A stretch of 33,481 nucleotides of DNA. Source: a virus. This document shows positions 9,995-31,570 of this stretch, in pieces. Location: the IMG/VR virus record IMGVR_UViG_3300005510_000010, positions 1 to 33,481 of that record. The stretch is one strand, 5' to 3'. Below the pieces are notes generated by a model. That model had not been told where the DNA came from, did not search any database, and was given only the letters and a program-made list of their open reading frames with translations. Positions within the stretch are counted from its first letter, which is position 1; every line of letters begins with the position of its first letter. A program made the position numbers and the translations under genes.

Positions 9995-10428
9995 GCTGCA
10001 TACTCCGTTGCTTTCATAAACCAAGATAAGTTACCACCATTACTATTATTAGGAAAATAACCTCTTGTAAACCAAATTTTATAAGTAAGGGCTGAAGTAG
10101 TATTGTGTGAAGTATGTGTGTATAGCCAATAGCCAGCGTACGAAACACCACTACCATAAACATCAGCGTATGTACCTATGTCGTTATTTGTAGTACCACC
10201 TGTACATCTTAATTGTTGTTTATGGTAAACATTACCACTTATCCATTGCATACAATTAACTTCAATAATAATTGTACTATTTGATTCTAAAGGAGTTATA
10301 GCTACATTGCATTGGCTTTCTGCAAAAGTATTGCTGTTATTATAAACATTATTATTAGCAAAATTAAATTGTGTTTGCAAAATTCTATTTCTGTAATTTT
10401 GTGTACCTTCTGGAAAAACAATAGCCAT
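9991..10428 (-). CDS. 145-aa short fibre/tip-type structural protein
   Basis: Begins MAIVFPEGTQNYRNRILQTQ; Asn/Thr/Tyr-rich and beta-type throughout, ending NLSWFMKATEYAA. The pattern (MAIVFPEGTQ..., a middle block with STIIIEVNC) is one I recall in marine phage structural proteins encoded beside fibres; it may be a jelly-roll tip domain. The ATG shares its A with the fibre gene's TAA, and GGAGGT inside the fibre's last codons is its ribosome binding site, so it is made together with the fibre. No enzymatic motif. Confidence 0.6.
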   Translation of the reverse strand: MAIVFPEGTQNYRNRILQTQFNFANNNVYNNSNTFAESQCNVAITPLESNSTIIIEVNCMQWISGNVYHKQQLRCTGGTTNNDIGTYADVYGSGVSYAGYWLYTHTSHNTTSALTYKIWFTRGYFPNNSNGGNLSWFMKATEYAA

Positions 10429-13400: not shown

Positions 13401-13691
13401 TTCTACAGCAGATGTAATAACAAGTTGAAAACCAGAAGGTAAATTAAAATTGTTACCACCTGATTTTAAGGTTATGCTTCCACCGGGATTACCATTTTGA
13501 TCTGAATTTAAAGTAACTATATAATCATTGTTAGCACCTAGAGTTAAGGTAGTTTCTATACTTGTACTAACTTCTAATTTTTTTACAACTACATCTGCGT
13601 CTGTAAAAACTTTAAAGGCAAACGGATATGTATGAGTATTGCCATTTCCGGCCAAATTACTAGTCTTTCGTGTAGTCGAATTTATCGTCAT
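10428..13691 (-). CDS. T7 gp17-like tail fibre with cupredoxin-like domain
   Basis: 1087 residues. Residues 1-140 are the T7-type fibre N-terminal domain that binds the tail (RKTSNLAGNGNTHTYPFAFK; GGFYPEVINDALDQAVILHQ). An Ala-rich helical segment (about 230-310) follows, then DDRYLGAKQSDPATDNDG, then 10-residue repeats (379-448). A cupredoxin-like domain spans about 512-612 with possible type-1 copper ligands H551, C596, H599 and M603. A second 10-residue repeat block (622-651), LTSGTLPNARFP/LTGTVADARI-type fibre repeats and a C-terminal DSSPQLGGTLDCNG module complete it. T7 gp17 has 553 residues, so this one is about twice as long. Late motif C lies upstream. Confidence 0.88.
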   Translation of the reverse strand: MTINSTTRKTSNLAGNGNTHTYPFAFKVFTDADVVVKKLEVSTSIETTLTLGANNDYIVTLNSDQNGNPGGSITLKSGGNNFNLPSGFQLVITSAVEPLQGTDLTNQGGFYPEVINDALDQAVILHQQQQDELDRSIKFSLTNTIGSLEITENANARKNRVLGFDNLGEFEVLKELGTYRGNWAAGTSYAVRDLVKDTSTNNIFFCNTAHTSQGAQPLTTNTNSANWDLIVDAASSTTAQNNAAASATASANSATAAASSQTAAANSATAAATSETNASNSATTASTKATQADASKTAAQTAQAAAELALDTFDDRYLGAKQSDPATDNDGNALIDGALYYNTTSNITKVYDLGTTSWLVVNITGTDLTNTNTVAGAISNVNTVSSNISNVNAVASNSSNINAVAGNNSNINTVAAANTNVNSVAGSIANVNTVASNISNVNTVAADIAKVVTVANDLNETVSEIETAAADLQETTSEIDTVANAITNVNLVGNNISNINAIGTILAGQTTYAVTVANGVFYIDGAANPTLSIIRGFTYIFDQSNNSNAGHPLAFKDGSGNAYTTGVTVNGTAGQSNANVTFVVPSNAPASMRYYCTQHGNGMGNTITVGDDNIGVVAGDINNVNTVAGSISNVNNVGGSIANVNSVASNLSGVNAFAERYRTDNSGNNPSTNNDGGDLFFNQASGKLLVYNANTSAWEETQSVGNFFINTISSFSGTGGNSATFNGSAYKFTLSNAGQFAQQMLVSVAGVVQKPNTGTGQPSEGFALDGANIVFAAPPPAGADYFIVTIGASVSIGTPSDGTITEAKLNASNNPVNGYFLQAQSGAAGGLTWAAVDLTNLSASNLTSGTLPNARFPATLPAVSGANLTNLPAGNLTGTVADARITSLTASKLTGALPAIDGSNLTGISTDLVGDSSPQLGGTLDCNGQSVQFKSGGGNVQIEYDVAADSFDFVDNAKSRYGTGNDLQIYHNGTDSYLTNGNSGGHLRITNVNSNKAIVFATSDASRFQISDGGHLIPSANNSYDLGDTNYRWRNVYTNDLNLSNEGSSNDVDGTWGSYTIQEGAEDLFLVNKRNGKKYKFNLTEVT
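11739..11828 (-). repeat. Second block of 10-residue fibre repeats (3 units)
   Basis: Three 30-nt units on the minus strand encode NNVNTVAGSI, SNVNNVGGSI and ANVNSVASNL (residues 622-651), after the cupredoxin-like domain. They match the larger block at 12348-12557 in period and motif but differ at synonymous sites, so the protein motif rather than the DNA is conserved. Confidence 0.8.
12348..12557 (-). repeat. Seven 10-residue tail-fibre repeats
   Basis: Seven consecutive 30-nt units on the minus strand (residues 379-448) encode [SAT]N[VI]N-x-V-[AS]-x3, for example SNVNTVSSNI, SNINAVAGNN and ANVNTVASNI. Degenerate units continue to about residue 500. The strict decad with Asn at positions 2 and 4 and Val at 6 suggests a regular shaft structure in the fibre trimer. 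Confidence 0.85.
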
Positions 13692-13718: not shown

Positions 13719-13752
13719 AGGTTATCAATAACTTTATAGATTACGGTCACAC
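13719..13752 (-). promoter_or_regulatory. Late promoter-like motif, copy C (fibre module)
   Basis: On the minus strand GTGTGACCGTAA occupies 13752-13741. After 12 nt comes TTGATAACCT (13728-13719), which holds the weak -10-like TAACCT. The block begins 5 nt after the polyvalent gene's stop and the fibre ATG is at 13691, leaving room for a leader of about 20 nt. The 12-nt block is identical in the copies at 25489-25500 and 31559-31570. Confidence 0.6.
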
Positions 13753-13757
13753 TTTTA

Positions 13758-16700
13758 TTATCTTGTACCTGTTTTACCTGTAACAACACCTCTTATAAAA
13801 TCAACTGGTCCTTTAGGTTTAGCATAGCCACGTTGTACATCTCGTAAATAACCAAATGTTCTACCTAATGGTGTAAATGGAATGCCAGTTCTTAATGTAA
13901 CCAAGGTAGAAACATCTCTTATTTGTTTTCCTGTTGTACCTTCTAAACCTTCTTGGAATATTGTTATGGGAAGATCTAGTATTACACGAGCCGAATCTTG
14001 CAATGCTTCAATACTTGGGCTAGAAACTATATCGTCATCCCAAGGCAGATCATTTTGAGCATTTATTGGGATAAGTGCAAGTTGTCCTACTACAGGTATT
14101 AAACCTGCCTTGTAACCCATAATATCTCCTAAAAATGCTTTAGCTACATCATCATGTATATAGCCATCATCATCTTTGTCTTCTCCTAATCTGCCACCTA
14201 AACCACGCATAATAAGACCTGAGATTATTGCTGGCATAAGAATAGTGTACAGATATAAATAAAATCCTTGCTCTGTTCCTATACCTTTATTTTTATAACC
14301 TATTTCATCTTTAACTAACTTTTGATATTGCGTAAAATCTAAATTTGCAATCATATTAAAGTAACCAGTAAATTGTGTTAATGATTGAATTATGGGGTCC
14401 ATGTTTTGAAATGCTGCTCTGTCTTCTGGCAATAAACTATCTTGTGTCATACGAACATTTGCATCTGCTTGTTTAATAGCTTCAGCCATTACCTCTTCAT
14501 TGCTCATAGTTACAGGCATTCTTTCAGTTACTTGGTTAACAGTTCCAATCCAGACAATAGCGTCAGTTATACCTTGAAATGTTTGTTGTAAAAAATAACC
14601 ATGAGCTTTACTCCACTCTTGCATTTTTTGAAAATTATCCGGATTTATAATTAAATCGTTTAACCTGCCTTGAATATCAAATATTAAATTCTGTTGTCTA
14701 TCTGCCATGAAAGGTGATGCTGCGGCAATTTTTTGCATTGTGCCTTCTCTATCTTTCATGTATTCAATTATGCCTTCTATTAAATGTCTAGGTTTTACTT
14801 TTATAAGTGCAGGGAATAAACCTGTAAGTTGTGTAAATGCGTTTGTTAAATTTCCAAACATTATTCCCATACCAGTTCTACGTTTACCAATTTGTATAAG
14901 TGCGTCAGCTTTTGGACCAAGCACACTAGGTGAATATGTTTTTTGACTAGCTGCTGATTTTAACCAAGGCATTATCATTTCATCTTTAATAGTTGGATCT
15001 ATAATTTTTAATAACTTTGTAAATTCTTTATCGTCTATTATTTTTAATAAATCTTTGATTACTGGTTGTATATGGGCATAACGTAGTGTGTCATCTATAT
15101 GTTTTGTCATATAGCCTAAATGCAATGATAGTGGTTGTGCAAACTGCTCATTACGTTTTTTTGTCATACCGTTTTCAACTTTTGGTAATGAATTTTTAAA
15201 CTCCATTTTTGCGGTACTTATTTCATCTTTAATATTTACATCTGTCATATTTGGATCACCTTTAGCAGGTACATAACCTCCTTCAAATTCGCCAAATCTA
15301 TTCACAATTGGCGTTGGTTTAACTATTTTAAAATAATATCCTTCAGTTTCTTTATGTGCTTTTTGCAAAAGAGGTAACATCTTTTTATTTAAATCCCATA
15401 CTGACTGTAAAAATATAAAATCTTGTTTTGTTAAATGTCCCTCGTTAATCATACGTTCTACAAACGCATCCCAATGAGTTGAATCTAATGACCCATCTTC
15501 GTTAAGTTTGCCCCATTTTCTGCCAAGTAATAATTTCTTTTTATTGCTGTCGTTACCTGTATGCAGCATAGCTCCAAGCAATTCAACTTTTCCTCTGCCA
15601 TTACTTTCTGCTCCAAATTTATATGCTTGAGACTCTTCAGAAACCATTGCAAATTCATTTGCCATAATTTCTGTATTACCAAAATCAACAGCACCAACTA
15701 ATTCTGCATATTCTTTTGTATAAATAGTTTGATCTACTCTGTATTCATCTAATGCTGATCGCATTGGAAACCATAACGTATTATAAAAATCACCTAATTT
15801 GCCATCTTTTAATTCTAATACTGCTGAAAGAAATCCCGGATTTACACCTTGTGCTCCATCCATCATGTCAACCCACGGTTCCATTCTTCTCAGTTTTGCT
15901 CCAAATCCTAACAACCCTAAAAAATCGCCATATGATGTTGGTACAGCTTCCGTTGTTCCAATAGGTGTTGCTGCTCTAGCACTTAATCTTTTACTTCTAG
16001 ATATCATTACTTTCATACGATTATTTAAAGTATCTTTTAATGGCTGTATATCTACTAATTCACCTTGTATTCTCATTTGATTTTGACGTAAAGATTGATG
16101 CCATAAAGACTCCATCAAATCATTTAAATTTAAAAATTCTTCATAAGTTAAATCTGTAATATCTGCCTGACCTTCGGCTGCTTGTGTGTCCTCAATCATA
16201 GGCTTAAGTTCTTCATACATATATTTGTCATATTCTTTCATATTTTCTACATACACCATTGGATTTTCTACTATTGGTCCAATACCATAAGAAGATAATA
16301 TTGCTCTACCCGCACTTACTAAATCTGAATTTCGTTGACTTTTGCCTTTTTTAAATAATTTTTTATCAGATCCAAAAAACTTGTTAAATAAAGAATCTCT
16401 ATTTGTAACTTGTTTTCTATATTGTTTTTGTATTTCTATAGCTTCTTTTGCTAGTTGATTGTTTAAAAGTTGTGATCGTTTTGCTTGTACAACATCTCTA
16501 ATAGAATCAGCATCTTTTCTTTTCATTGCTTTTTCAGCTTCTTTTAACGCATTAGCTTCTGCTCTTGTAAATACTGACGGTCTTATTTCTGATAATTTCA
16601 TTTCTGCCAATATATCTTGAGCAACTTGTTTTGCAGCAGCAACTTGATATCTTACTGGTTGCATAGCTTTTGTTAAAAATCCTAGTTCAACTGCTATAAA

Positions 16701-19700
16701 TCTTGCTCTTGCTTCGTTATGTATTGCTTCTTGTACTTGTAATTCTAATTGTCTGTCATCAATTAAATCACTATGTTCTTCTAACATACGATGATCTGTA
16801 CGTTCTTTTACAACATCTTGTATAGGTCTTATTTCTAATAATGCATTTACCAATGATTCTCCTGATGGAAACCCAAACATATCTGCTACAACTTTTGCGT
16901 CTAAACCGTTTTTTCTAACCATGCCATTTTGACCAGTACCTAGTTTTTTTATATCTGCTTTTGCTACGTCTTCGTCATAAAATGGTATTAAATTTTTGAT
17001 GCTATTAATAGATAATTTATGAATACCTTTTGTTTTTACTAATTCACCTTTTTCATTATAAGTTTCACCACGTTTTAAAAATGATTGGACTTTATAAACT
17101 GGATCTTGTTTTAATTTTTCAAGTTCTTCTTGTTCTATTTTTTGACGCAATTTAAGAACTTTTTTATCAAATTGTTTTTTGACTTTTTCTCTTTTGTTAT
17201 TTAACCAACGCACTTGTCTCATGCTTTGCCGTGTCATTATTTCTATTGATTCGTTTTCTGCTTCTTCTAATGCTGCTGTATATTCTGCCCACTCTGTATC
17301 ATTCATCCCACTTTGTTCTTGTGTTTGGAACATACCTTTCATGTCATATATTGCATTTGCTTGTACTATGTCTTCATCAACAGCTAACATTCTGTCCATT
17401 ACGTTTCTTACTTCGTCAGTAAGCATAGGCAAGTCTTGACCAGTTTCTTGTTTATAAGCAGCGTTAACTTTGTAAATAACATCTGTATAAACTCTTTTAA
17501 TAAATCTACTAAATTTCCTAAACATTTCTTGTAATGCCGTGCTTGGAGCTTTACCTTCAAACAGATAAATTTCAAAGTTATATGCAAATGATTCGTGGTA
17601 CTTTCTTTTTTGATCAATGTCAAAAGATTTCCATGTTTCTAAATCTTTTACACCCCAAAAATCTAATAAAATATTAAAATCATTTATTAGTTCTAATGGG
17701 GCATTTTCTCCTGTAACTATATTTTCTAATACAGTTAACATATAGTGAGCACTCTCATGTGCAAAAGTTGAGAAATCTGCTTGTGTAGTAAATAATGCTG
17801 TTAATGTATCCGGTTGAAAACGACCTCTAGCACCGTCAGAATCTTGTTGCTGTGCAAACTCTCCAACGTTTACTCGAATAGATCCTCCGTAGACAAGATT
17901 TCCTTCAGCATCTGTAAGTCTGATGTTGAAATCTCTTCGTCCGTTAGGGAATTCATCATTTGGTTCAAGGATTTTTGGGTCAACCCTGATGGGAACTGCT
18001 GTATCACCATAGCCAGTATCCGTGATAGCTCTGGTGGTAACGTAGACATCAGGTTCTCCAGCACTTCTAAGTTCACCTGTCGCTCTGATTCGTTCTGCGT
18101 TTCTTCTACTGGTGTGGTGGTAGACGGTGACAGTTCCATCTGGGTTGAGAGGGAGTCCTGTGGTTTCGTCAATTCTTCCTTGTTGTTGGAAAGTTCCATC
18201 ATCTCCTCGTACCTCTCCTCTTCCTCCAGCATCAGGTTGTGTTCCTCTTGATTGCTCAACGGCCTGTAACTCATCATCCACCTCCTGTATTGCAGATTGT
18301 ATGTCTTCATCTGGTATACCTATTCTAGCAGCAAATTCAACAGCAGCATTGGCATAATCAGGTGCTTCATTATCTTCGTAATTTGTTTCTACTACTGCTT
18401 CTTTTAATTTTGCAGAATCATATAATTTTTTTTCTGGATACCAAACAAGTGCTTGCAAATCTGCCATTGTTAAAGAAGGATAATCTTTTTGCAAAACTTC
18501 TAATACTTGTGCAAAAACTTTTTCTATATTTCTTCTTTCTGGAGCACCACTTGGTGCTTCTTTTTGACCATCATTATCTTTAGCTAATAAATTACCTCTT
18601 TTACGCAAGTAGTCACCAAGAGAAACTGTGGCATCATCTTTTCTTGGCTTACCATTAATTTCTACATATATTTCTTTATGTTTTGGATCTTCTTTAAAAG
18701 TAGCTATTTGTGCCATTAATTTACGATTTTCTTCTGTAGTAGATGCTTTTTCAATATCAATAGCTAATTGATCAAGGTCACCTATTGTAAGTTTTCTGCC
18801 AATAATTGTTTCAAACGCTTTTTTCTGTGTCTTAGTTAAAGCTTTAATTATTTGTTTTATTTGCCCTCTTTTTATTTTTGCTTGTTTTTGTTTGTTTAAA
18901 ACTAACGTACCTGTCATGCGACCCCATGTACGCATAGCCCATCTATCTAAAGTTAATTGGTCATAGTTGCCATTTAAATTTGCAAAAAATCCATTACCAA
19001 TTTTTGGACCCATTATTGCAGCACCATAAACCATTTCATCTAATCCATAACCACCGCCTACTTTTATTTGTCTTCCATTTTTATATGTTCCTACAAACTC
19101 ATGCACTTCTCTTACAGTATGCATAGTTCTCATAAATTCTTCTATTTCTTTAAAAGATTTTCTATCAAATAATAAATTTAATATTTTAAAAGATTTTTCC
19201 ATTGCTGCTCTTGCAGTACCACCTGTCTTTTCGCCTTGTGCATTTAACATTTTTTCTGGCAATCTGCCTTTACCTTCACCTAGTTCTTCTTCTGACCTCA
19301 ACCATTTTTCATATACATCTGCTGCATACTCATAATTTTTATCTACTTTTATACCGTTAGATGTAGCTGCTAATGCCCATTTAAATACAAATTCATGTCT
19401 TTTATCAGTAGCAACTTTTGGATATACAAGAGAAAGTATTCGTACTGCTTTAGATACTTTTTCGTCATACCAACCAACAGCATTTGCATTTTCTGTCAAA
19501 GCAAATCGTGCGTCTTCCAATAAAGTTCTTACAAGATATTTTTCTGTTTCTACACTAAAATCTGCTAAATTTACACCTGCTTTTTTAGCAGCAGCTTGTA
19601 TACGACCTTGTATTTCTAATTTAAAATCACGATTAGTTGCAAAAGGTTTACTCTTTGCAAAATCAAAATTTTCTAAAATTCTTGCTAATTGAAATACTTC

Positions 19701-22421
19701 TTCTGATACTGGCTTGCCTTGTTTTTGTGTTGCTTTTTGTTCAAAGGATTCTGTAACTTGTTGTTTATATATGTCATTTATTTCGTTAGACCAGTTACCA
19801 CTATTGTCTACAGACTTAACAGCATTTGCATCAAAAACAGCTACCTCTACTATTTCTCCAGAATTATTAACCATAATGACACCATCATGTCCTTCGTTAA
19901 TTAATTTATCTTTGTATGCATTTGCCGCTGCTTTACCACCATCTTTATTTTGTGATTTAATCCCACTATTTACATTTACTGTTTTTGGATTTTCTAGACG
20001 TACATACAATTCTAATATTTTTTTATCTTCTGTTTTTTTTCTAAATCTACTTTTTTTAATGTCAGCATAAATCTTTGCCAATCCTTTGTTAGGAGTAACG
20101 TATATGCCTTTGCCTAAATACCCTGTGTCTAATCTGTTTGGGTGTTCTAAATCAAACTGTCTTATATTGTCTGTAGTTCCGTGGTAAAAAACCATTGGTG
20201 TACCATCTTTATTAACCATTTTCGATTTACGAAACCAGTTTTTAAATAATGGCGAATCTGTTTTTATTGTTCCGTCTTGATTAAAATATTGTTGACCAAA
20301 ATTTTTACTTTTAGTGTCTAATTGAATGTTATAAAAATGATCGTTTATAAATTGTGAAGGTGTTTGATTTGTGTATTGAGAATATGTTTTTGCAAAATTT
20401 CCTATTAGTCGTGATAAAAACCGGGCATTATGTGGTTTGTAAATATTTAAATTCTTTAATTGGTTTGTAATTTGTAATTCTATTTGTCTTGATTCTTCTT
20501 GATCTTGTAATAATTGGTCTTTTTGTTTACTAACTTCTTCTTTCATTGCTTTTAATATTTCTGGCTGGTCTTTAAAAAATTGATTAGCTTCTGTCAAACT
20601 CATTTGGTCACTACCAAATTTTATATGTGGTTTTAATGACTCATCAAATTTTGTACCAGAAATATTTGCTAAATAATCACCAGTTTTTATTTGTATAGTT
20701 GTTCCTGATAAACCTTGTTTTTCTGCATTTTTTAATTGATTAGCAAGTTCTGGTGAAAACAATTCTAATTGCTGTTCTGTAATAGCATTGTTATCTAATT
20801 GTTGTTTGAATTCCTGTGCATTTATATGTATTGTGTCTGCATTATTTTGATCGGCTAATTGTTGTACCCAGTTTTGCCATGCAGTTTTATTTCTTTTTTT
20901 TGTTACGTCATCTTTAGATATTTGACTTAACTTAGATAATATTGCGGTATCTTTTTTTGCTTTGCTCGCCGCTGTAAAATCAGTTGCAAAACTACCTATT
21001 GACGGCAATAAACCAAATAAAACCATACTTCTAAAAGTCATATCCATTGTGTTATAAATTCTGTCTCCTATTTCTACTGCACTAATTGGAGTTACTCCAT
21101 CTTCAAATTCAGCAAATAAATTTATACCTGCAATTGCATTTAATTCTTGTAATAATTCTGTAGTAAGTTCTACTCCTACGTTAGACATATATTGTGTTGC
21201 ACCTCTAAATAATGCTGCTTTATATGTAAGTTTGCGTCCACCGTTACTTAAAACATTTTTTGCAAATACTCTGTTTATTGCTTTATCTAATCCAGATTTT
21301 TTCATTAATGGACTAGTTAATGGGTCAATAAGTTTTAAGTAACCCGGTGCACTTTTTTTTAAAACACGAGAAAAATATTCTATTCCTACTCTTTCAATAG
21401 CAGCTTCACTCCATCCAGTTATTTCTGCTAATACTTGTGCTCTTTCTACACTTATACCTCTACTTCTTGCTTCCATATATTGATGACCAGATGCTATTTG
21501 TTTCATGTCTAAAGTCATTTTGTTGGTATAAGCATTCATACCAGTAAAGAGACTTATAAATGGTGAAACTACCTGACCAATTGCGTAACCAACTCCGTAG
21601 CCCATAAAATTGCCACCGCCATCATTACCAAATAATTGAGAGAAAAAAGTTGAAGTAAGTGCTTTTGTTGCAACATCTGTTCCCTTGGCTGTTACTAAAC
21701 CTGCTGTGATTGCTTCAATTTGACCACCACGCAATAAACCCGGCATATATGCGAAACCTTCAAGAAGACCAATACCATTATTGTCGTATTCTCTTAATCT
21801 TTCTTCCATTACTCTTAATGCTTCTAAGTCATCTAAATCTTGTTGAGTGGGCACATATCCTTCTTCAAATCCTCTTTTTGTATCTAAAAACGGTACACCG
21901 TTTGTTTTTAAACGATCTCCAATGTCTCCCATTTCTCTTGCGATAGTTCCCCTTGCATCACCTTCGTAATAGTTTTGTGCTAACTTTTTAAAACCGGGAA
22001 ATAAACCTTCAGTTTTTTGTAGTCTGGGAATATTGTCATATGCTATTGCTGCAAAGTTAGGATCACGCAATTGTTTTGCCAACAATGGATTTACTAATGC
22101 TAAATCTCGTGCATTAAGATTTTGTATTTCTTGTTGTTTTTTTCTTTCCTCTAATATTTCTAATACACCTTCATTATCTAGTGCCATGTCAGGTGGTATG
22201 CCTAATTCTTCAGCTAATATCTGTGCTTTTCCAATTCTGTTTGGATCTTTTTTTTGTGCAAGACTAAGAACTTGTTTTAGTACTTCTTCTTTTTGTTTGT
22301 CTTGTACTTTAAAATAAGTATCAAACGGATTGTCATCTACATAATTATTTTGATTAGATCCGTAGCTTTCACCTAAAAATTGATCGTTTCCAACATTATC
22401 AAAAGGATTTGATGAACTCAT
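13758..22421 (-). CDS. 2887-aa polyvalent ejected protein (ART, zincin and LPD domains), gp16 position
   Basis: 2887 residues, far longer than T7 gp16 (1318), which sits at this point of the T7 order. Seen: a helical N-terminal part with a hydrophobic stretch (about 271-295). An ART-PolyVal-like ADP-ribosyltransferase domain at about 735-880 carries YHGTT (H747), LGKGIYVTP and EVAVFDANAVKS. A helical block near 1138-1170 has MGPKIGNGFFANLNG and QLTLDRWAMRTWGRMTG. A second ART-like domain at about 1430-1520 has VYHHTSRRNAERI and DVYVTTR. A zincin motif HESAH (1555-1559) is followed by DRMLAVDEDI. The C-terminus (2480-2887) resembles LPD38-type domains and ends FIRGVVTGKTGTR. Such polyvalent proteins are thought to enter the host with the DNA and act on host targets. 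GGAGG precedes the ATG. No transglycosylase motif recognised. Confidence 0.85.
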   Translation of the reverse strand: MSSSNPFDNVGNDQFLGESYGSNQNNYVDDNPFDTYFKVQDKQKEEVLKQVLSLAQKKDPNRIGKAQILAEELGIPPDMALDNEGVLEILEERKKQQEIQNLNARDLALVNPLLAKQLRDPNFAAIAYDNIPRLQKTEGLFPGFKKLAQNYYEGDARGTIAREMGDIGDRLKTNGVPFLDTKRGFEEGYVPTQQDLDDLEALRVMEERLREYDNNGIGLLEGFAYMPGLLRGGQIEAITAGLVTAKGTDVATKALTSTFFSQLFGNDGGGNFMGYGVGYAIGQVVSPFISLFTGMNAYTNKMTLDMKQIASGHQYMEARSRGISVERAQVLAEITGWSEAAIERVGIEYFSRVLKKSAPGYLKLIDPLTSPLMKKSGLDKAINRVFAKNVLSNGGRKLTYKAALFRGATQYMSNVGVELTTELLQELNAIAGINLFAEFEDGVTPISAVEIGDRIYNTMDMTFRSMVLFGLLPSIGSFATDFTAASKAKKDTAILSKLSQISKDDVTKKRNKTAWQNWVQQLADQNNADTIHINAQEFKQQLDNNAITEQQLELFSPELANQLKNAEKQGLSGTTIQIKTGDYLANISGTKFDESLKPHIKFGSDQMSLTEANQFFKDQPEILKAMKEEVSKQKDQLLQDQEESRQIELQITNQLKNLNIYKPHNARFLSRLIGNFAKTYSQYTNQTPSQFINDHFYNIQLDTKSKNFGQQYFNQDGTIKTDSPLFKNWFRKSKMVNKDGTPMVFYHGTTDNIRQFDLEHPNRLDTGYLGKGIYVTPNKGLAKIYADIKKSRFRKKTEDKKILELYVRLENPKTVNVNSGIKSQNKDGGKAAANAYKDKLINEGHDGVIMVNNSGEIVEVAVFDANAVKSVDNSGNWSNEINDIYKQQVTESFEQKATQKQGKPVSEEVFQLARILENFDFAKSKPFATNRDFKLEIQGRIQAAAKKAGVNLADFSVETEKYLVRTLLEDARFALTENANAVGWYDEKVSKAVRILSLVYPKVATDKRHEFVFKWALAATSNGIKVDKNYEYAADVYEKWLRSEEELGEGKGRLPEKMLNAQGEKTGGTARAAMEKSFKILNLLFDRKSFKEIEEFMRTMHTVREVHEFVGTYKNGRQIKVGGGYGLDEMVYGAAIMGPKIGNGFFANLNGNYDQLTLDRWAMRTWGRMTGTLVLNKQKQAKIKRGQIKQIIKALTKTQKKAFETIIGRKLTIGDLDQLAIDIEKASTTEENRKLMAQIATFKEDPKHKEIYVEINGKPRKDDATVSLGDYLRKRGNLLAKDNDGQKEAPSGAPERRNIEKVFAQVLEVLQKDYPSLTMADLQALVWYPEKKLYDSAKLKEAVVETNYEDNEAPDYANAAVEFAARIGIPDEDIQSAIQEVDDELQAVEQSRGTQPDAGGRGEVRGDDGTFQQQGRIDETTGLPLNPDGTVTVYHHTSRRNAERIRATGELRSAGEPDVYVTTRAITDTGYGDTAVPIRVDPKILEPNDEFPNGRRDFNIRLTDAEGNLVYGGSIRVNVGEFAQQQDSDGARGRFQPDTLTALFTTQADFSTFAHESAHYMLTVLENIVTGENAPLELINDFNILLDFWGVKDLETWKSFDIDQKRKYHESFAYNFEIYLFEGKAPSTALQEMFRKFSRFIKRVYTDVIYKVNAAYKQETGQDLPMLTDEVRNVMDRMLAVDEDIVQANAIYDMKGMFQTQEQSGMNDTEWAEYTAALEEAENESIEIMTRQSMRQVRWLNNKREKVKKQFDKKVLKLRQKIEQEELEKLKQDPVYKVQSFLKRGETYNEKGELVKTKGIHKLSINSIKNLIPFYDEDVAKADIKKLGTGQNGMVRKNGLDAKVVADMFGFPSGESLVNALLEIRPIQDVVKERTDHRMLEEHSDLIDDRQLELQVQEAIHNEARARFIAVELGFLTKAMQPVRYQVAAAKQVAQDILAEMKLSEIRPSVFTRAEANALKEAEKAMKRKDADSIRDVVQAKRSQLLNNQLAKEAIEIQKQYRKQVTNRDSLFNKFFGSDKKLFKKGKSQRNSDLVSAGRAILSSYGIGPIVENPMVYVENMKEYDKYMYEELKPMIEDTQAAEGQADITDLTYEEFLNLNDLMESLWHQSLRQNQMRIQGELVDIQPLKDTLNNRMKVMISRSKRLSARAATPIGTTEAVPTSYGDFLGLLGFGAKLRRMEPWVDMMDGAQGVNPGFLSAVLELKDGKLGDFYNTLWFPMRSALDEYRVDQTIYTKEYAELVGAVDFGNTEIMANEFAMVSEESQAYKFGAESNGRGKVELLGAMLHTGNDSNKKKLLLGRKWGKLNEDGSLDSTHWDAFVERMINEGHLTKQDFIFLQSVWDLNKKMLPLLQKAHKETEGYYFKIVKPTPIVNRFGEFEGGYVPAKGDPNMTDVNIKDEISTAKMEFKNSLPKVENGMTKKRNEQFAQPLSLHLGYMTKHIDDTLRYAHIQPVIKDLLKIIDDKEFTKLLKIIDPTIKDEMIMPWLKSAASQKTYSPSVLGPKADALIQIGKRRTGMGIMFGNLTNAFTQLTGLFPALIKVKPRHLIEGIIEYMKDREGTMQKIAAASPFMADRQQNLIFDIQGRLNDLIINPDNFQKMQEWSKAHGYFLQQTFQGITDAIVWIGTVNQVTERMPVTMSNEEVMAEAIKQADANVRMTQDSLLPEDRAAFQNMDPIIQSLTQFTGYFNMIANLDFTQYQKLVKDEIGYKNKGIGTEQGFYLYLYTILMPAIISGLIMRGLGGRLGEDKDDDGYIHDDVAKAFLGDIMGYKAGLIPVVGQLALIPINAQNDLPWDDDIVSSPSIEALQDSARVILDLPITIFQEGLEGTTGKQIRDVSTLVTLRTGIPFTPLGRTFGYLRDVQRGYAKPKGPVDFIRGVVTGKTGTR
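17821..18300 (-). other. GC-rich island over the second ART-like domain
   Basis: Counting by 60-nt lines gives about 47% GC across these 480 nt. Sampled flanks are lower: 33% at 17761-17820, 32% at 18361-18420, 27% at 17101-17160 and 13% at 19141-19200. The island encodes residues about 1375-1534 of the polyvalent protein, namely an acidic linker and the whole second ART-like domain, and stops just before the zincin. The composition suggests a recent domain acquisition from a higher-GC source. Confidence 0.75.
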
Positions 22422-22422
22422 A

Positions 22423-24849
22423 TTATTCCTCCATAGTTAATAATTCATAGTTTTTACTTGCTTTAATAAATTTATCCGCTTCTTCTAACGTTTCTGGCCT
22501 ACCCATGTTTTGCCATAGTTGTGCAATTTGTTGTTGATTCATAGGTTTTTTACGTTTATACAACGCAGCCATTATTGCAATATTTATATCTGGTGGAATC
22601 TCTGAATTAAATATCCGATCTTCTGTTTCAGTTCCATCAGCACGTTTTACTTTGACAAGGACAGATGTTTTATCTAACTTATCCTTTTCACCTGTCTCAA
22701 GAACAGTTGCAAAAGTAACCTGTTTTTTATATTTCTTGCCTACATTTACTTTGTCTAATAATACATTTACTAATAATTGTTCTTTTTCTGCTCTAGTTAA
22801 TTTTCTGCCTTCTACCCTTTGTGCATAATTTATTCTATCTCTCCATGCATCTTCAAGTTCATTATATATAGCTGCATCATCGCCTTTTAATTCTTCTTCT
22901 GGAAAAGCTAAATCTCCAAAACCATTTTTATATAAAACACTTTTAAACATTTTGTTATCAGTAGTTACTTCAAAAATTTTTGATTCTCCTCCTCCTTGCA
23001 ATTCTTTAGCGTATCTTTCTAATTCTAGATAATCAGATTTAGAAATTTTATGGCTGTATGACTCTAAATTATTAACGACTTCTTCTGGATTATCTTTTAA
23101 TTTAGCTATCGTTCCTTGATCAGAATCTACTGGCTGTCCATTTTTTAAAATCTCTTGATCTTTTGGACTAAAACTATCTATTTGTATTCCATTAGCTGCA
23201 AGATTCTTGTATCCGTTTGGCTCTGCAAATGCTATTTTTTTTGCAGCGTTTAAATTTTCATTATAAATTTGTGTTTTTTGATTTGCGATTTTTTCGTATT
23301 TAACTTCTAAATCTTTTATTGCGTGTTTTTGTGTTTCTTTATCTGTAATAGTTTCTTTAATTTCACGTTTTAAATCTTCTATAGGACGCAAACCTGTAAC
23401 AAAATCTACCTTAACTTCTTCGTTAGTATTTTTATAATTGTAATCAATACCTTTTTCTATAATTGCTAAATCGTTTTCTATAATGCTTACATATTCTCCA
23501 CCACCAAATTTATATTTTTTTGCTGCTTCTTGAACAATTAATTGATTGTATCTTTGTATAATTTTTTTATTTATTTTTTCAGCATATACAGGATCTTCTT
23601 TGTATTTTGCTTTATCAATCTCTATGTCTGATTTTGCTTTTGTGTACAATGAATCAGCTTTTTCTACTCCTATATGCTGTATTGCAAACAAGTGCGTAGT
23701 TTGATGTTCTGGTATAAGAGTACCTGCTTGTGAAGATTCAGGTGAATAAAATTTAGACGTATCTCTTATTTTTTGTAATGTTTCTATATTTTCTGTTGTT
23801 GTTGTACCTGATGTTTCGTTTTCATTTGAATGTAATCCATCTGTGACAACTCCTCCGTTTCCATCTTCATACGCATGGTTTGATTTTAAACACATTGTTT
23901 TATTAATTTGACTTAAAAATTCACCATCGTTTTGATTACCAGTATTAGCAAGAGTGGCATTAACACAGTTCTCACCTTTAAAATTCTCGTGTTTTTGTTC
24001 TTTGTCTGACGCTAATTCATTAAAAGTTTTATCAGATGTAAAAGGCTTCAAGCTTGCCAAAAAATCTTTAATGCCTTCTGTATCTTTGTCTTCATCTAAT
24101 TTATCTAATACATCTTTTGCTATTTCCTTATCAAGCTCACTTTTTTCTTTTAAATATTGTTCACTTATTCCAATTTTTTTACCGTTAGCATCAACGGCAT
24201 TAGGGTCAAGATTCCAACCTTTTAAAACTGCTTTTTGTTCTAATAATCTATGTGCCGCTATACGATTTTTATTAAATTCACCCTCTGGATCTCTAAAATC
24301 TTTATAATTATTTTTTGCTTTAGTTTTATGTATGTCAATACTCGCATTTGTTTCGTTTTCTAATGCTATACGTCCTTGTGTTAAGGAATGATTAATCATC
24401 TTATTTTGTGCAGATTTTATAGACGATGACATCATTTGTTCATACATATATTTAACAACGCCATTACTAGCTTTATCTGAACCAGTATCAAGAACTTTTT
24501 TTAATTTATTGTTGTTATATTCATCTAAGGTATATACCTGATCTTCTCCCTCTCCTTCTGTTGTTAATGGTTTTACTGCATCGTAACCTTGTAATTGTCC
24601 ATATTCGTTTACAACAGCTTCAACTTCATAATGAGCTTCGTTATACAAACGTTTAGCTTCAGAATCATTAAGCTGATCATCTATTCGATTTAACGTTTTT
24701 CCAAAAGCTATTTGAGCTTGTGACATACGTTTTATGTCATCAGAAACTACATCTTTTTGTGGTTCTACACTAGTAGCACCAAATTGCACTTCAGAACCTG
24801 TTTCTACTTGTTCTCCTAATTTGTAATTTTGAAAAGGAACTTTTGCCAT
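22423..24849 (-). CDS. Internal virion protein, T7 gp15-like
   Basis: 808 residues, mainly helical and highly charged, with Lys/Glu/Asn-rich stretches and no membrane segment or signal peptide. T7 gp15 has 747 residues and the same place between a gp14-like and a gp16-position protein; the assignment rests on size, composition and order, not on a motif. Such proteins form the ejection channel across the periplasm. Starts MAKVPFQNYKLGEQVETGSE. Its final codons hold the GGAGG used by the polyvalent gene two bases downstream, so the two are translationally linked. Confidence 0.6.
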   Translation of the reverse strand: MAKVPFQNYKLGEQVETGSEVQFGATSVEPQKDVVSDDIKRMSQAQIAFGKTLNRIDDQLNDSEAKRLYNEAHYEVEAVVNEYGQLQGYDAVKPLTTEGEGEDQVYTLDEYNNNKLKKVLDTGSDKASNGVVKYMYEQMMSSSIKSAQNKMINHSLTQGRIALENETNASIDIHKTKAKNNYKDFRDPEGEFNKNRIAAHRLLEQKAVLKGWNLDPNAVDANGKKIGISEQYLKEKSELDKEIAKDVLDKLDEDKDTEGIKDFLASLKPFTSDKTFNELASDKEQKHENFKGENCVNATLANTGNQNDGEFLSQINKTMCLKSNHAYEDGNGGVVTDGLHSNENETSGTTTTENIETLQKIRDTSKFYSPESSQAGTLIPEHQTTHLFAIQHIGVEKADSLYTKAKSDIEIDKAKYKEDPVYAEKINKKIIQRYNQLIVQEAAKKYKFGGGEYVSIIENDLAIIEKGIDYNYKNTNEEVKVDFVTGLRPIEDLKREIKETITDKETQKHAIKDLEVKYEKIANQKTQIYNENLNAAKKIAFAEPNGYKNLAANGIQIDSFSPKDQEILKNGQPVDSDQGTIAKLKDNPEEVVNNLESYSHKISKSDYLELERYAKELQGGGESKIFEVTTDNKMFKSVLYKNGFGDLAFPEEELKGDDAAIYNELEDAWRDRINYAQRVEGRKLTRAEKEQLLVNVLLDKVNVGKKYKKQVTFATVLETGEKDKLDKTSVLVKVKRADGTETEDRIFNSEIPPDINIAIMAALYKRKKPMNQQQIAQLWQNMGRPETLEEADKFIKASKNYELLTMEE

Positions 24850-24851
24850 AA

Positions 24852-25433
24852 TTATGCTCTTAACATTCCTTCTGGTAAGCTGCTAAGAACATTACCTGCA
24901 CCTGTTAACAAACTACTGCTCATATTCATAAACGGACTAATAGAAGACGCTGTAGCAAACATATTACTTGCACTCATTCCATACATATCTCCTTGTATTC
25001 CAAGACCTACACCTTCTAATCGTTTGTTTTGTACTGCTCGCACTTTATTAGAATTCATCGTTAATTTATCTATCTCTGCCAATATGTCATTACTAACCAT
25101 TGCATTTAAATTACTACCAACACCTCTTACACCACCTCTAGAAGCTATTGATACTATGTTTTTAGACTTTGCTGCTCCTTGCTTCAAACTCATTATTTGA
25201 AATCGTTTGTTATAAGCACGATTTATATGCTGTGCTTGACTTTCTTTTTGACGCATATTAAAAAGAGCCATATCTTTTTTATGCTGCAAACTTAAAGCTA
25301 AACTTTTTGTTTTATATTTTTCTGCACTTGCTGCGTAAAAAGAACCAACAGCACCACTTACCGCACCAAAACCCTGTGTAATTATCCCTGCTTTACCTAA
25401 ATTACTTAAGCCACTCCAACCTACTTGAGCCAT
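24852..25433 (-). CDS. Internal virion protein, T7 gp14-like
   Basis: 193 residues; T7 gp14 has 196. The N-terminal part has a hydrophobic Gly/Ala-rich segment (GIITQGFGAVSGAVGSFYAA, about 15-34). Then come Gln-rich helices (SLQHKKDMALFNMRQKESQA), SRGGVRGVGSNLNAMVSNDI in the middle and a Met/Ser-rich end. This is the usual layout of gp14-like proteins that insert into the outer membrane during DNA ejection. It is the first gene after late motif B, with GAGGT about 12 nt before the ATG. Confidence 0.7.
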   Translation of the reverse strand: MAQVGWSGLSNLGKAGIITQGFGAVSGAVGSFYAASAEKYKTKSLALSLQHKKDMALFNMRQKESQAQHINRAYNKRFQIMSLKQGAAKSKNIVSIASRGGVRGVGSNLNAMVSNDILAEIDKLTMNSNKVRAVQNKRLEGVGLGIQGDMYGMSASNMFATASSISPFMNMSSSLLTGAGNVLSSLPEGMLRA

Positions 25434-25466
25434 TGTTGTGCTTACCTCAACGCTTCTTTATTTTTT

Positions 25467-25500
25467 AGTATATCTACATAATATCTTTTTACGGTCACAC
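25467..25500 (-). promoter_or_regulatory. Late promoter-like motif, copy B (internal virion module)
   Basis: GTGTGACCGTAA at 25500-25489 (minus strand), then 12 nt, then TAGATATACT (25476-25467) containing TATACT, five of six matches to the sigma-70 -10 consensus. Its first G is the last base of the gp12-like TAG stop. A start about 7 nt below the -10 would give a leader near 27 nt carrying GAGGT before the gp14-like ATG at 25433. This is the best-formed of the three copies. Confidence 0.68.
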
Positions 25501-27968: not shown

Positions 27969-27971
27969 AAG

Positions 27972-28640
27972 TTACCTCCCAGATGTCCAAGGAACTATAT
28001 GCTCAACTGTAATATCTCTATGTAAATTATCTGATTGTTTTGCACTATTCAAATAATTAACCATCATTTGTGAACTACGTTTTGCTTCTGCCGCACCTTG
28101 ATCTCCTTTAATTACAGGACCAGCCAACATAGATGCTAAATGCCATGACAATGTAACTACAAATAAAGGTGAAAATAATGATGGATCAGTTACAAATGCT
28201 TGATATCTTAACATTGCGTTTTCTTGATTGGTATATATTAAATCGCCTTCTAATGAAAATTGTTGTGGTGTATATTGCCCTGCCACAATAGTAGGTGCAT
28301 AGTTGGATGTTATACCTCCGGGGGTATCACCGGCTGACATTCTTGTAGCGTAATCGTTTTGTGCTGTAGGAGATATGATTGCAACAGGACTCATCATGTC
28401 CGCAGGGGCTACATATGCATAATCCCACTGATCAAGAGTATTAGTTGTTAATGCAATATTTCCACGCTTTGATGCAAAATTCCATGTATGCATTTCTAAC
28501 AAACTGTTTCTTGCAATCGGATAAAAACGTGCAGCTTTTTCCGCCTGTGCAGATCCTTCTGGTGGATTTAGCGAAGCTATTGTTGCATCATCACCCAAAT
28601 GTGCTAGGGCAAGGTTGCAAATATCTACTTCAGTTGCCAT
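27972..28640 (-). CDS. Head-tail adaptor, T7 gp11-like (tail tubular protein A)
   Basis: 222 residues; T7 gp11 has 196. The start MATEVDICNLALAHLGDDAT, then EKAARFYPIARNSLLEMHTW and DYAYVAPADMM, is the standard pattern of gp11/gp4-type adaptors that ring the portal and seat the tail. Its ATG follows AGGAGAT, just past the hairpin terminator at 28653-28689, so its expression may depend on read-through from the capsid block. Stop and nozzle start are 3 nt apart. Confidence 0.9.
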   Translation of the reverse strand: MATEVDICNLALAHLGDDATIASLNPPEGSAQAEKAARFYPIARNSLLEMHTWNFASKRGNIALTTNTLDQWDYAYVAPADMMSPVAIISPTAQNDYATRMSAGDTPGGITSNYAPTIVAGQYTPQQFSLEGDLIYTNQENAMLRYQAFVTDPSLFSPLFVVTLSWHLASMLAGPVIKGDQGAAEAKRSSQMMVNYLNSAKQSDNLHRDITVEHIVPWTSGR

Positions 28641-28652
28641 GTTATCTCCTAT

Positions 28653-28689
28653 AAAAAGAGGAGGTTAGCAGTATTACTACTAGCCCCCC
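28653..28689 (-). terminator. Rho-independent terminator between capsid block and gp11
   Basis: On the minus strand GGGGGGCTAGTAG (28689-28677) pairs with CTGCTAACCTCCT (28671-28659) around TAATA: 12 of 13 positions pair, counting three G-U pairs. C and TTTTT (28657-28653) follow. It lies between the HeH-protein gene and the gp11-like gene. This would reduce tail-gene transcription relative to capsid genes. T7 has its T-phi terminator at the same gene boundary. Confidence 0.8.
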
Positions 28690-28692
28690 GGT

Positions 28693-28724
28693 AAATAAAT
28701 AAGGTTGTAAATGCCTATTTATTT
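28693..28724 (-). repeat. AT-only inverted repeat over the HeH-protein stop codon
   Basis: AAATAAATA at 28693-28701 and TATTTATTT at 28716-28724 are perfect inverted arms around a 14-nt loop. The arm on the gene side contains the TAG stop of the 28715-29026 gene. It lies directly upstream of the stronger hairpin and may cooperate with it. Confidence 0.5.
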
Positions 28725-29026
28725 GCTGCTTCAAGTTGACTAATAAGAGTTTCTTTAGTTTGTCTTCTATCAAGCTCTACACCAATAGAACGACCATAAA
28801 CTTCAAGTTCTGCTTTAGTCATTGATAAATAATCAATGGATTGAGTAGTTGGCTGAACATCCTCTGACACTACGGTTGGTGTGTTAGACGGCACAGGCAG
28901 ATCAGATTCAGTTCCACCAACTAATTCAATATTACTATTGAACTCTCCGTTGTATTCAAACTCTTCGTCAGCTTCTCGCATAGATTGACCGACAAAACAC
29001 TTGATTTTAGCTTTGTAAATAGGCAT
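28715..29026 (-). CDS. 103-aa protein with C-terminal HeH/Rho-N-like domain
   Basis: N-terminal about 40 residues form a small beta-type segment (MPIYKAKIKCFVGQSMREAD). Then a Pro/Thr/Ser linker and a 35-residue helical end (MTKAELEVYGRSIGVELDRR, then QTKETLISQLEAANK), which matches the HeH (LEM/SAP-like, Rho-N) fold found in many short phage proteins encoded next to capsid genes. Such domains bind nucleic acid or proteins; its role here, perhaps in head completion, is unknown. AAGGAAA precedes the ATG. Confidence 0.7.
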   Translation of the reverse strand: MPIYKAKIKCFVGQSMREADEEFEYNGEFNSNIELVGGTESDLPVPSNTPTVVSEDVQPTTQSIDYLSMTKAELEVYGRSIGVELDRRQTKETLISQLEAANK

Positions 29027-29038
29027 AAATTTTCCTTA

Positions 29039-29470
29039 TTAAACTACGGTAAAGCCAGAAGCATAGTACTTTTGACCATCACCAATTGTCTCTACTATAT
29101 CAGCAGTAACTTTACCTGCATTCATAGTACCAACAACAGTGTATCTAGCACCTAGATATCTCTGACCCTTGCCAGCGATGTCTGGATTTAAAGTAACAAC
29201 AATGTTTTTACCTAATGTAAGTGCTGCTGTAGCTAATGTTGTACTGCTACCAATAACAGTTGGTGTACCTAAGTTTGCACTAGCACTAGTAATAACTTCA
29301 AAAGTTACGCTAGTACCGTTAGCAAATGCTTCAGTAAGTGCAAAATTCATGTACAAAGTTTTACCTTCACCCATGTCTCTTGCAACACTTAAATCAACAG
29401 TGTTTGTAGATACAGCAGTTGTTGTTACCGCTTGATCTTCGCTCACTCTGAGCAGACTATCTGTAATCAT
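29039..29470 (-). CDS. Capsid cement/decoration protein, Bbp16-like
   Basis: 143 residues, beta-rich and Thr/Ala/Val-rich: SEDQAVTTTAVSTNTVDLSV, then ARDMGEGKTLYMNFALTEAF, then YLGARYTVVGTM and YYASGFTVV. This fits the Bbp16 cement protein of Bordetella phage BPP-1, which sits on the capsid surface and stabilises the shell. It directly follows the capsid gene, as in BPP-1. AGGAGAT precedes the ATG. Family assignment is by remembered pattern. Confidence 0.75.
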   Translation of the reverse strand: MITDSLLRVSEDQAVTTTAVSTNTVDLSVARDMGEGKTLYMNFALTEAFANGTSVTFEVITSASANLGTPTVIGSSTTLATAALTLGKNIVVTLNPDIAGKGQRYLGARYTVVGTMNAGKVTADIVETIGDGQKYYASGFTVV

Positions 29471-29497
29471 TTTAGATCTCCTTTAATAATAAACAAA

Positions 29498-30517
29498 TTA
29501 AACTACACGAGCTTCGCTGTTAATCAACGCATCTACTCTTCTTAGAGGTACTCCAAGGAATGATAAGTAGTTTTGTGCTGATCCAAACTGTGATAAACCT
29601 TCTTGTATGTTTAATACGTTTTGTGATTTATCAAGTGCTGCGATAGCCATGCCTGAGTGAACAGTTCTATTCATATAGAACGCTGCTCTTCCCATTGCCA
29701 TGTTTGGTATTCTGTACAATGCTCTAGCCATCAATTTAACTAAGTTAGTTGAAGCTGCTGCTGTTTGTGTACCAGTACTACCAAGGAGGTCAGAAATGTC
29801 GATGTTGCAAATACGAACAACGTATCTCCAATCTTTAACGACCAAACCGTTTTTCCACTGATAACGAGTAGCAAAAGCTTGTAGTCTTGTACCGTCACTG
29901 TTGTAAACAGTTTGCTCACCTAGATCTTCGTGAGTTAAACCTGCTTTTGATCCTTTAGGAAAAGGACAATAAACAGTATTGTCACCCCAAACAACTAGAT
30001 ATACAGAAGCGTTATCAGAACCTGATCCACCTGCATCAAGAATGTTGACAGCGTTGTCAGCAGATAAGTCACCATATCTTGGTGCTAATCCTAAAAACTT
30101 CTTAGGATCTGTTCCGGGATTACCGTAGAACATTGTTTCTGCTTGAGTCTGGTTCATTGCTTCCAAGAACGCAGTGTCTTCAGATAAACGGAACTGTGCA
30201 GTGTTACCATTTAACATTGCCAAGTCTTTGTCCACTTCAGAACGAGCTTCTAGAATTCCACAAGCTTCGTCAATCTGTGCTGTTGTTGACTTAGTTGATG
30301 GAATACCTTGGTTAAGTGCTCTCCAGTAAACACCGGGTAGACCTGTTCTAATAACTACACGTTCTCCAGTAGGTAAATTACCTTCCTTGAACACGCAATC
30401 ATCTAGTATTTCGTTGCTTTGTGATAATAATTCTGCAACAATTGGAACTCTACCGTCTGGGTCAGTTCTTTTTGCCCAATCCGCTAGTGTTAAATTTGAG
30501 GTTGATAGTGTAGCCAT
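29498..30517 (-). CDS. Major capsid protein, BPP-1 Bbp17-like
   Basis: 339 residues. The N-terminal part (LTLADWAKRTDPDGRVPIVA, ELLSQSNEILDDCVFKEGN) and the block GERVVIRTGLPGVYWRALNQ, STTAQIDEACGILEARSEVD match the HK97-fold capsid proteins of BPP-1-like podoviruses. Bbp17 itself has a similar length. The order scaffold, capsid, cement supports this. AAGGAGTT stands 6 nt before the ATG, a strong ribosome binding site as expected for the most abundant virion protein. The T7 gp10 type is excluded because that protein lacks this N-terminal pattern. Confidence 0.92.
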   Translation of the reverse strand: MATLSTSNLTLADWAKRTDPDGRVPIVAELLSQSNEILDDCVFKEGNLPTGERVVIRTGLPGVYWRALNQGIPSTKSTTAQIDEACGILEARSEVDKDLAMLNGNTAQFRLSEDTAFLEAMNQTQAETMFYGNPGTDPKKFLGLAPRYGDLSADNAVNILDAGGSGSDNASVYLVVWGDNTVYCPFPKGSKAGLTHEDLGEQTVYNSDGTRLQAFATRYQWKNGLVVKDWRYVVRICNIDISDLLGSTGTQTAAASTNLVKLMARALYRIPNMAMGRAAFYMNRTVHSGMAIAALDKSQNVLNIQEGLSQFGSAQNYLSFLGVPLRRVDALINSEARVV

Positions 30518-30528
30518 TTAATAACTCC

Positions 30529-31227
30529 TTACTTGTTTTGCTGATTTGAATATAGTGCGTTAGCTATGCCGTTAAAATCTTTAGGAACTTTACTGCCTTG
30601 TGCATTTGCTCCTTGTGAATTACCAACATAACTGTCTTCACTAATTGCCTTACCCGCTCGGTACATAAACCGAATTACTTCGGGATGATTTCCCAAGCCT
30701 GATTCTGACAGCAACTGTTTTAAAGGATCAGTACCAAACGCATCAAGGGCTGTTTTAGCAACTTCAAGATTGGCATCTAAGTTTTCTCCACCAAATTCAT
30801 CATCTGATTTTGAACTTTCTGCCCATTCTGTCCTTGCTTGTTCAACCTGTGCTGCTTGTCTCGCCTGTATTACAGGTGCGACTTTGTCTAATACCTTTTG
30901 TGCAGCTTCTTGTGGCAGGTCAAGTTCTTTAGCGACTTCACCGAATGCAGTTAAGACTTCGGGGTCGAGTACTTCTGGTGCGTCAGCCACCTTATCGTTG
31001 AACTCGTATTTCTCAGGAGCACCTTCTTTTTCGGGTTCCTGTTCGCTAGTTTCACTTTCAGCAGAGGATTCATCCGAATCTTGCTGATCTGCTACGGTTT
31101 CAGCTTGTTGCTGTGTTTCTTCAGTATTAGTTGCTTCAGCCGATTGCTCGGTTTTTGCTTCTTCTACTGGTTGCTGTGTGCTGCCTTCATTGGTTTGATC
31201 GGCTTCCGTCATCAGCGTTTCTGACAT
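30529..31227 (-). CDS. Scaffolding protein
   Basis: 232 residues. The first 75 are acidic and Glu/Gln/Ser/Thr-rich low complexity (EETQQQAETVADQQDSDESS). Then come helices (LTAFGEVAKELDLPQEAAQK; APVIQARQAAQVEQARTEWA) and a C-terminal part with GLGNHPEVIRFMYRAGKAIS, typical of podovirus scaffolds encoded just before the capsid protein. It guides procapsid assembly and then leaves. Its ATG lies inside the Bbp19-like gene (41-nt overlap), with AAGGAGC 7 nt upstream. Confidence 0.85.
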   Translation of the reverse strand: MSETLMTEADQTNEGSTQQPVEEAKTEQSAEATNTEETQQQAETVADQQDSDESSAESETSEQEPEKEGAPEKYEFNDKVADAPEVLDPEVLTAFGEVAKELDLPQEAAQKVLDKVAPVIQARQAAQVEQARTEWAESSKSDDEFGGENLDANLEVAKTALDAFGTDPLKQLLSESGLGNHPEVIRFMYRAGKAISEDSYVGNSQGANAQGSKVPKDFNGIANALYSNQQNK

Positions 31228-31531
31228 TTTTTTGCTCCTTAATCATTGTCGGGTATAACTCTGGGCAGAGAGTGTGAATTAAGTTTAGTATTTGCAAACC
31301 ATAGTTTCTGTTACCTTCGCTAAATGACATTGCCATTGCGTTAGTGTTAAACGATGATCGGTAAACACCTGCTTTTTCCAGAAGTCTCCAGATTAATCTG
31401 CGACCCCTCTTGCTGCTCATCAGCCATTTGATGTCCGACTCTTCATTTTGGCGGTCAATTCTTTCCTCAGACTTTTTATTGTCTTTGGTTTTTTGTTGAC
31501 TCTTGAGGTCGAGAGGATTGTATTCACTCAT
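31187..31531 (-). CDS. Bbp19-like head-module protein
   Basis: 114 residues. The core SDIKWLMSSKRGRRLIWRLL, then EKAGVYRSSFNTNAMAMSF, then EGNRNYGLQILNLI is the pattern of the Bbp19 family, found in BPP-1-like phages between portal and scaffold genes. Function in the family is unknown. The N-terminal 30 residues are Lys/Asp/Asn-rich and variable. The ATG lies only 5 nt after the -10-like element of late motif A and has no Shine-Dalgarno, so this gene may be read from a leaderless transcript. No other in-frame start precedes it because of an upstream TGA. Confidence 0.85.
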   Translation of the reverse strand: MSEYNPLDLKSQQKTKDNKKSEERIDRQNEESDIKWLMSSKRGRRLIWRLLEKAGVYRSSFNTNAMAMSFSEGNRNYGLQILNLIHTLCPELYPTMIKEQKNVRNADDGSRSNQ

Positions 31532-31536
31532 ACATC

Positions 31537-31570
31537 AATATATCTAGTCATAACTGGGTTACGGTCACAC
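31537..31570 (-). promoter_or_regulatory. Late promoter-like motif, copy A (head module)
   Basis: GTGTGACCGTAA at 31570-31559 (minus strand), then 12 nt, then TAGATATATT (31546-31537) with -10-like TATATT. The block begins two bases after the stop of the 47-aa gene at 31572. The next ATG (31531) is only 5 nt below TATATT. If this is a sigma-70-like promoter, the transcript would start at or beside the start codon. Confidence 0.65.

Follow-up and report, generated by a model that had tools for sequence, protein, structure and literature searches.

A repeated box with a −10 hexamer 17 bp away as a putative promoter set for the structural genes of BPP-1-like podophages, with a phage helix-turn-helix protein as its candidate reader

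A short element that recurs between the structural gene modules of a marine podovirus and its relatives quite probably marks a set of four promoters for the structural genes, which would be read by a phage-encoded helix-turn-helix (HTH) protein together with the host RNA polymerase. The element consists of a box of 9–12 bp that has the core GTRMCCGTA and sits in the −35 region, a spacer of exactly 17 bp and a TANNNT −10 hexamer, and this combination stands at three structural gene gaps of the window, by which we mean the whole 33,481-nucleotide stretch of DNA analysed. What the sequences show directly is the box with its spacing and strand, the positions of the genes, the conservation and the joint occurrence with the protein; from these we infer promoter activity, start points, timing, protein binding and the use of host polymerase, and the genes driven are presumably late.

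Judged by its gene content, the source phage is a podovirus with structural genes of the Bordetella phage BPP-1 and Salmonella phage epsilon15 type. Protein family matches assign to the minus strand the genes for the portal, the protease and the major head protein, together with those for tail tubular proteins, fibres and internal virion proteins of great length; RecT, RusA and a DnaC-like loader are encoded on the plus strand. The nearest annotated records are Limnohabitans phage DC33, the spring-water genomes ctQRb9 and ctEw122, zth2-2, BPP-1 and the Caulobacter Jess A group. Two of these records carry peculiarities of their own: GenBank files DC33 (L084, PQ492659.1) under Inoviridae, even though the phage has podoviral tail and portal genes that resemble those of BPP-1; the Jess A record (L192) has two annotated terminase large subunit genes, one per end (19–1662 and 42955–44598), a doubling that is perhaps a terminal repeat or an assembly effect. 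In the window itself, a plus-strand gene at 2432–3412 matches a Mom-like DNA modification family (phrog_1384, E 1.7e-56), and some 180–215 bp at 5422–5636 share 83–90% identity with Prochlorococcus podophages (the P-GSP1, P-RSP2 and P-SCSP1 group), an isolated match in a genome otherwise unrelated to them.

The preliminary description of this DNA had reported three copies of GTGTGACCGTAA, each on or within 5 nt of an upstream stop codon and each ahead of a functional module, and a scan of the window bears this out. The three exact copies lie on the minus strand only (Table 1), and the window holds no further copy with up to two mismatches allowed. Stop codons lie 1–5 nt ahead of the block or overlap it (at site B the first G of the box doubles as the final base of the TAG codon that ends the tail gene), and the modules downstream, by protein family matches, are head, internal virion and fibre genes. 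Twelve nucleotides past the copies come TAGATATATT, TAGATATACT and TTGATAACCT, as described; the position of this second half of the element stands, but the −10 hexamer is better set at its last six bases (TATATT, TATACT and TAACCT). By chance, any one 12-mer would be expected to occur exactly about 0.004 times (67 kb over both strands, by our own arithmetic with equal base frequencies), which makes three exact copies remarkable; three matches at two mismatches or fewer also arose in 18 of 100 shuffles and are unremarkable for the window alone. The decisive support for the GTGTGACCGTAA elements is comparative rather than drawn from window counts.

Table 1. Putative promoter elements in the window and the genes that lie around them.
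Feature	Position	Strand	Remarks
Site A box GTGTGACCGTAA	31559..31570	−	before head module; ACCGTA 31565–31560 in the −35 position
Site A −10 hexamer TATATT	31537..31542	−	17 bp past ACCGTA; 5 nt to the ATG of phrog_528
Site B box GTGTGACCGTAA	25489..25500	−	before internal virion genes
Site B −10 hexamer TATACT	25467..25472	−	17 bp past ACCGTA; 33-nt gap to ATG at 25433
Site C box GTGTGACCGTAA	13741..13752	−	fibre module
Site C −10 hexamer TAACCT	13719..13724	−	17 bp past ACCGTA
Head genes behind site A	29498..31531	−	phrog_528 (bbp19-like), protease, major head protein
Internal virion protein genes behind site B	13758..25433	−	193, 808 and 2887 aa
Tail fibre gene behind site C	10428..13691	−	1087 aa
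Portal (head–tail adaptor) gene	32029..33384	−	probably cut by contig end

Conservation is most readily followed in 80 marine relatives, which were gathered by a search with the tail protein. At site B, GTGTRACC coincides with the tail gene stop codon in 78 of the 78 relatives that are readable there, and at site A the spacing is identical in all 42 distinct relative sequences. The pattern GTGTRACCRTAA has 88 matches in 26 whole records, on one strand per record, and its reversed control has none. Near-complete relatives carry exactly four copies on the structural strand, namely A, B and C and a further site 0, found at a GNAT acetyltransferase gene between terminase and portal, some 3 kb upstream of site A; the four modules behind the sites are GNAT/portal, head, internal virion and fibre. 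The window is a genome fragment whose end falls within or just past the portal gene. From the spacing in the relatives, site 0 of the source phage would fall about 1 kb past the window end (base 33481), and the relatives' layout suggests that its small-terminase and bbp27-like regulator genes would also sit beyond that base; site 0 and the regulator gene are missing from the window because the contig ends. In marine relatives (L005 3427, L132 5561 and others) the site 0 box is part of the GNAT homologue's open reading frame, where it is read as SVTV after the start, and in the freshwater phages and BPP-1 it precedes the start codon.

The distance between box and hexamer is fixed. TANNNT lies 17 bp from the −35 position, as in a sigma-70-type promoter, in all 173 distinct strict sites of the relatives (these sites are kin by descent and do not amount to 173 independent trials), and in none at spacings of 12–16 or 18 bp. 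Anchored on CCGTA, the hexamer is characteristic of each site: TACTGT at site 0, TATATT at A, TATAYT at B and, in the window, TAACCT at C. Among viral contigs the pattern with its true spacing occurs in at least 120 stretches, against 10 when the spacer is made 2 bp shorter. The −35 position is of another kind: ACCGTA or CCCGTA stands where a TTGACA-like hexamer would be expected, and a sigma-70 consensus scan returned no pair joining the ACCGTA box to its own −10. The 17-bp spacer of site B (window 25473–25489, the region of consensus ACAGATATNNTGTATG) is itself strongly conserved in the marine relatives, beyond the spacer of site C.

The same arrangement recurs at homologous gaps well outside the marine group. 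Boxes with 17-bp spacing are found as GGTACCCGTA in DC33, ctQRb9 and zth2-2, as GGTGCCCGTA in ctEw122 and as GGGTGCCCGTG in BPP-1 and a Gallionella prophage. Twelve of the 13 genomes with GTRM boxes have four 17-bp-spaced sites on the structural strand, and the 13 together have nearly no matches at spacings of 13–16 or 18–21 bp; BPP-1 has three sites by the strict pattern and a fourth box, ahead of the small terminase, whose −10 position reads AAAACT. A fifth match in G005 (GTGCCCATG) is degenerate and was set aside as a chance match. In Jess A, GGTGCGCATG occurs at the gaps preceding the small terminase, head and fibre genes, with a less clear −10 (TANNNA at 17 bp at two sites, TANNNG at 19 bp at the third). 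No 17-bp-spaced box was found in the outgroups epsilon15 (e15), Tr60_Ab31, AF, Carin1, Skadi-4 and PfDIW6, whose structural gaps were checked. A scan of genome contigs for prophages returned two loci, the Gallionella one with boxes and one in Stutzerimonas with the HTH gene. The Stutzerimonas stutzeri locus (L110) contains no known box variant with a spaced −10 in the 20 kb examined; at 10001–10700 it has a bbp27-like HTH gene ahead of terminase-like genes, and behind this HTH gene comes another reading frame that carries a similar motif.

Conservation between genes, the fixed −10 spacing, the restriction to the structural strand and the homologous gaps across hosts all support the reading as a promoter family that had been proposed from the window. 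Relatives with the same gene order that lacked the block between genes had been named as evidence against it, and where the lineage was checked for this the block is kept.

A candidate reader is a protein of 78–111 aa with an HTH core, whose gene (bbp27 in BPP-1) immediately precedes that of the small terminase. Its gene was found by tblastn in exactly 13 of 50,697 phage records, those of the BPP-1, Jess A, DC33, ctQRb9, ctEw122 and zth2-2 groups, and by profile search in every box-bearing genome that reaches its region, whereas the same search found it in no outgroup (six examined). The window and G003 stop short of this region, and the closest long relative (the contig of L005/L132) carries the gene. 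The protein has no Pfam assignment above the cut-off; an AlphaFold2 model (mean pLDDT 88.8) consists of a strand, three helices and a strand, and matches among solved structures are to generic HTH proteins at E above 0.2. The small terminase, a lipoprotein and the GNAT protein have largely the same phyletic pattern, and small terminases are also DNA-binding. Among the families common to the box-bearing genomes and missing from the outgroups, the HTH protein and the small terminase are the only likely DNA-binders. The HTH protein probably reads the boxes.

Three kinds of reader had been suggested at the outset, and of these a phage activator fits best. No phage sigma factor was found: none of 15 records has a sigma-70 region 2 domain (PF04542), which was detected in 10 control genomes. 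The third, a single-subunit RNA polymerase of T7 type (PF00940), likewise had no match in the 15 records, in a search that gave no match in the control genomes either. Two other candidates were rejected, a PrtN-like activator as in the pyocin system (PF11112 in 0 of 23 records) and a Cro-like protein of 84 aa that is common to many box phages and has no BLAST counterpart in ctQRb9 or BPP-1. One GenBank record does give the name PrtN to a small protein.

The pairing of box and protein can be followed in the contigs that hold both the HTH gene and boxes of the GTRC class. There the residue after KxC in the recognition helix is arginine with GTGC (20 of 20) and asparagine, lysine, glutamine or threonine with GTAC (40 of 40), a rule that was spotted post hoc from the alignment. 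On the portal tree the third base of the box switches five times, and the helix residue tracks it in two independent pairs on well-supported branches; with so few independent switches, a test of the covariation cannot reach significance. In the marine GTGA class both K and R occur at the residue, and the simple rule fails there. In Jess A the box differs in its 3′ half and the recognition helix differs too. The covariation as seen in these alignments is support for the pairing of box and protein and not proof of it.

As a mechanism, it is proposed that the HTH protein would be made ahead of the late genes and would bind the box at about −40 to −30, replacing the −35 element, while the host RNA polymerase would read TANNNT through its sigma factor. 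The protein would in this way recruit the host polymerase to the four promoters, and the packaging/portal, head, internal virion and fibre/lysis genes would be switched on together. A further prediction concerns the head module. The ATG follows the −10 by 5 nt at site A in 42 of 42 distinct sequences and by 6 nt at the homologous sites of the freshwater phages, BPP-1 and Gallionella, with a range of 5–7 nt across all lineages. Because this ATG sits where a sigma-70 promoter would start transcription, a leaderless or near-leaderless head mRNA is predicted, the case being borderline in the marine lineage, where the 5-nt discriminator is short. That all of this amounts to a hitherto undescribed late system, in which a strand–HTH–strand protein of about 90 aa takes over sigma's −35 contact, box and helix co-evolve across phages of several proteobacterial hosts and the head mRNA is leaderless, is a tentative proposal that we would sooner doubt than assert in its entirety.

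There are other ways to read the same elements. Given that TANNNT at a 17-bp spacing needs only a sigma-70-type holoenzyme, host RNA polymerase might be directed by a host sigma factor or activator, with the bbp27-like protein otherwise employed, for example in packaging. This seems unlikely, since ACCGTA and CCCGTA are far from TTGACA and the consensus scan yielded no such pair, phages of Bordetella, Caulobacter, Limnohabitans and Gallionella share one box core, and the box variants track the phage lineage and the helix residue of the phage protein. The promoters might also be read by some other phage factor, whether a divergent sigma factor, a polymerase or an unrelated activator, and there is some room for one among the many unannotated early genes and in a T7-type polymerase search that ran without a positive control. 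We hold this to be more unlikely still, given the lack of sigma region 2 in the 15 records with working controls and the standing of the HTH protein and small terminase as sole likely DNA-binders among the box-specific families.

The blocks need not be promoters at all. They lie at module borders, a few nucleotides from stop codons, as might be expected of module-boundary or recombination sequences or of some other DNA landmark for packaging or replication; such a role would leave unexplained the fixed 17 bp to TANNNT across otherwise divergent spacers, the 5–7 nt to the ATG of site A and the strict strand bias, and we regard it as very improbable. Equally improbable is a function in RNA, as processing, antitermination or translation signals, to which the position of several blocks in the intergenic leaders of long operons might point. 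The window has no Rfam match (nor did a tRNA search of it find anything), the marine site 0 lies within an open reading frame, and if the −10 is placed correctly, the mRNA downstream of site A would contain hardly any of the element.

A promoter set read by a phage HTH protein would have partial counterparts in several known systems. In T4 middle promoters a phage box takes the place of the −35 element and MotA and AsiA appropriate sigma (PMC6755090, PMC7403470), the MotA box being centred at about −30 (PMC6755090). Like these promoters, the elements described here combine a sigma-70 −10 with a phage box that would stand in for the −35 element, and their proposed reader is a small DNA-binding protein of the phage; they differ in box sequence and spacing, in a box placed near −35 and in serving structural rather than middle genes. 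It is the mechanism that may be likened to MotA; membership of a MotA type is not claimed for the box phages, nor is kinship with MotA for the HTH protein, whose matches are to generic HTH folds only.

In P2/186 and in Mu, a small phage activator (Ogr, and C/Mor, respectively) serves several dispersed late promoters, much as is proposed here for one small phage activator, but the Ogr and C/Mor sites, usually dyads, are placed further upstream; the present box covers −40 to −30 and has no obvious dyad symmetry. As with lambdoid Q antitermination, it is the late structural region that would be controlled, in the box phages from several start sites instead of by antitermination; the related podophages Tr60_Ab31 and PfDIW6 have an annotated Q-like gene and none of the boxes. 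Conserved promoters repeated ahead of structural modules also recall T7-like promoters, but the elements here are bipartite with a sigma-type −10, and no polymerase was found, in a search without a working control. BPP-1 (Rauchvirus) shares the structural gene order and the box core (GGGTGCCCGTG) with the source lineage, and the bbp27 HTH gene lies upstream of the small terminase in BPP-1 and in the relatives of the source phage alike. BPP-1 differs from the source phage in box sequence, and it has a box before the small terminase, while its internal virion genes lack one.

We found no paper on these elements or on the function of the HTH protein, and searches for BPP-1 late promoters turned up nothing relevant, in a survey of mostly open-access literature. 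Promoters go unmentioned in the papers on phages of Limnohabitans (PMC12195039) and of Caulobacter (PMC11053796). Within the literature covered, the set of boxes and its HTH reader appear not to have been described before. For BPP-1, the model phage for diversity-generating retroelements, the late-gene switch would gain a specific candidate regulator, exact predictions of start sites and a testable rule that links a residue to a base. If the proposal is true, it would provide a compact orthogonal pair of promoter and activator, and a readable regulatory code for abundant uncultured phages of marine and fresh waters.
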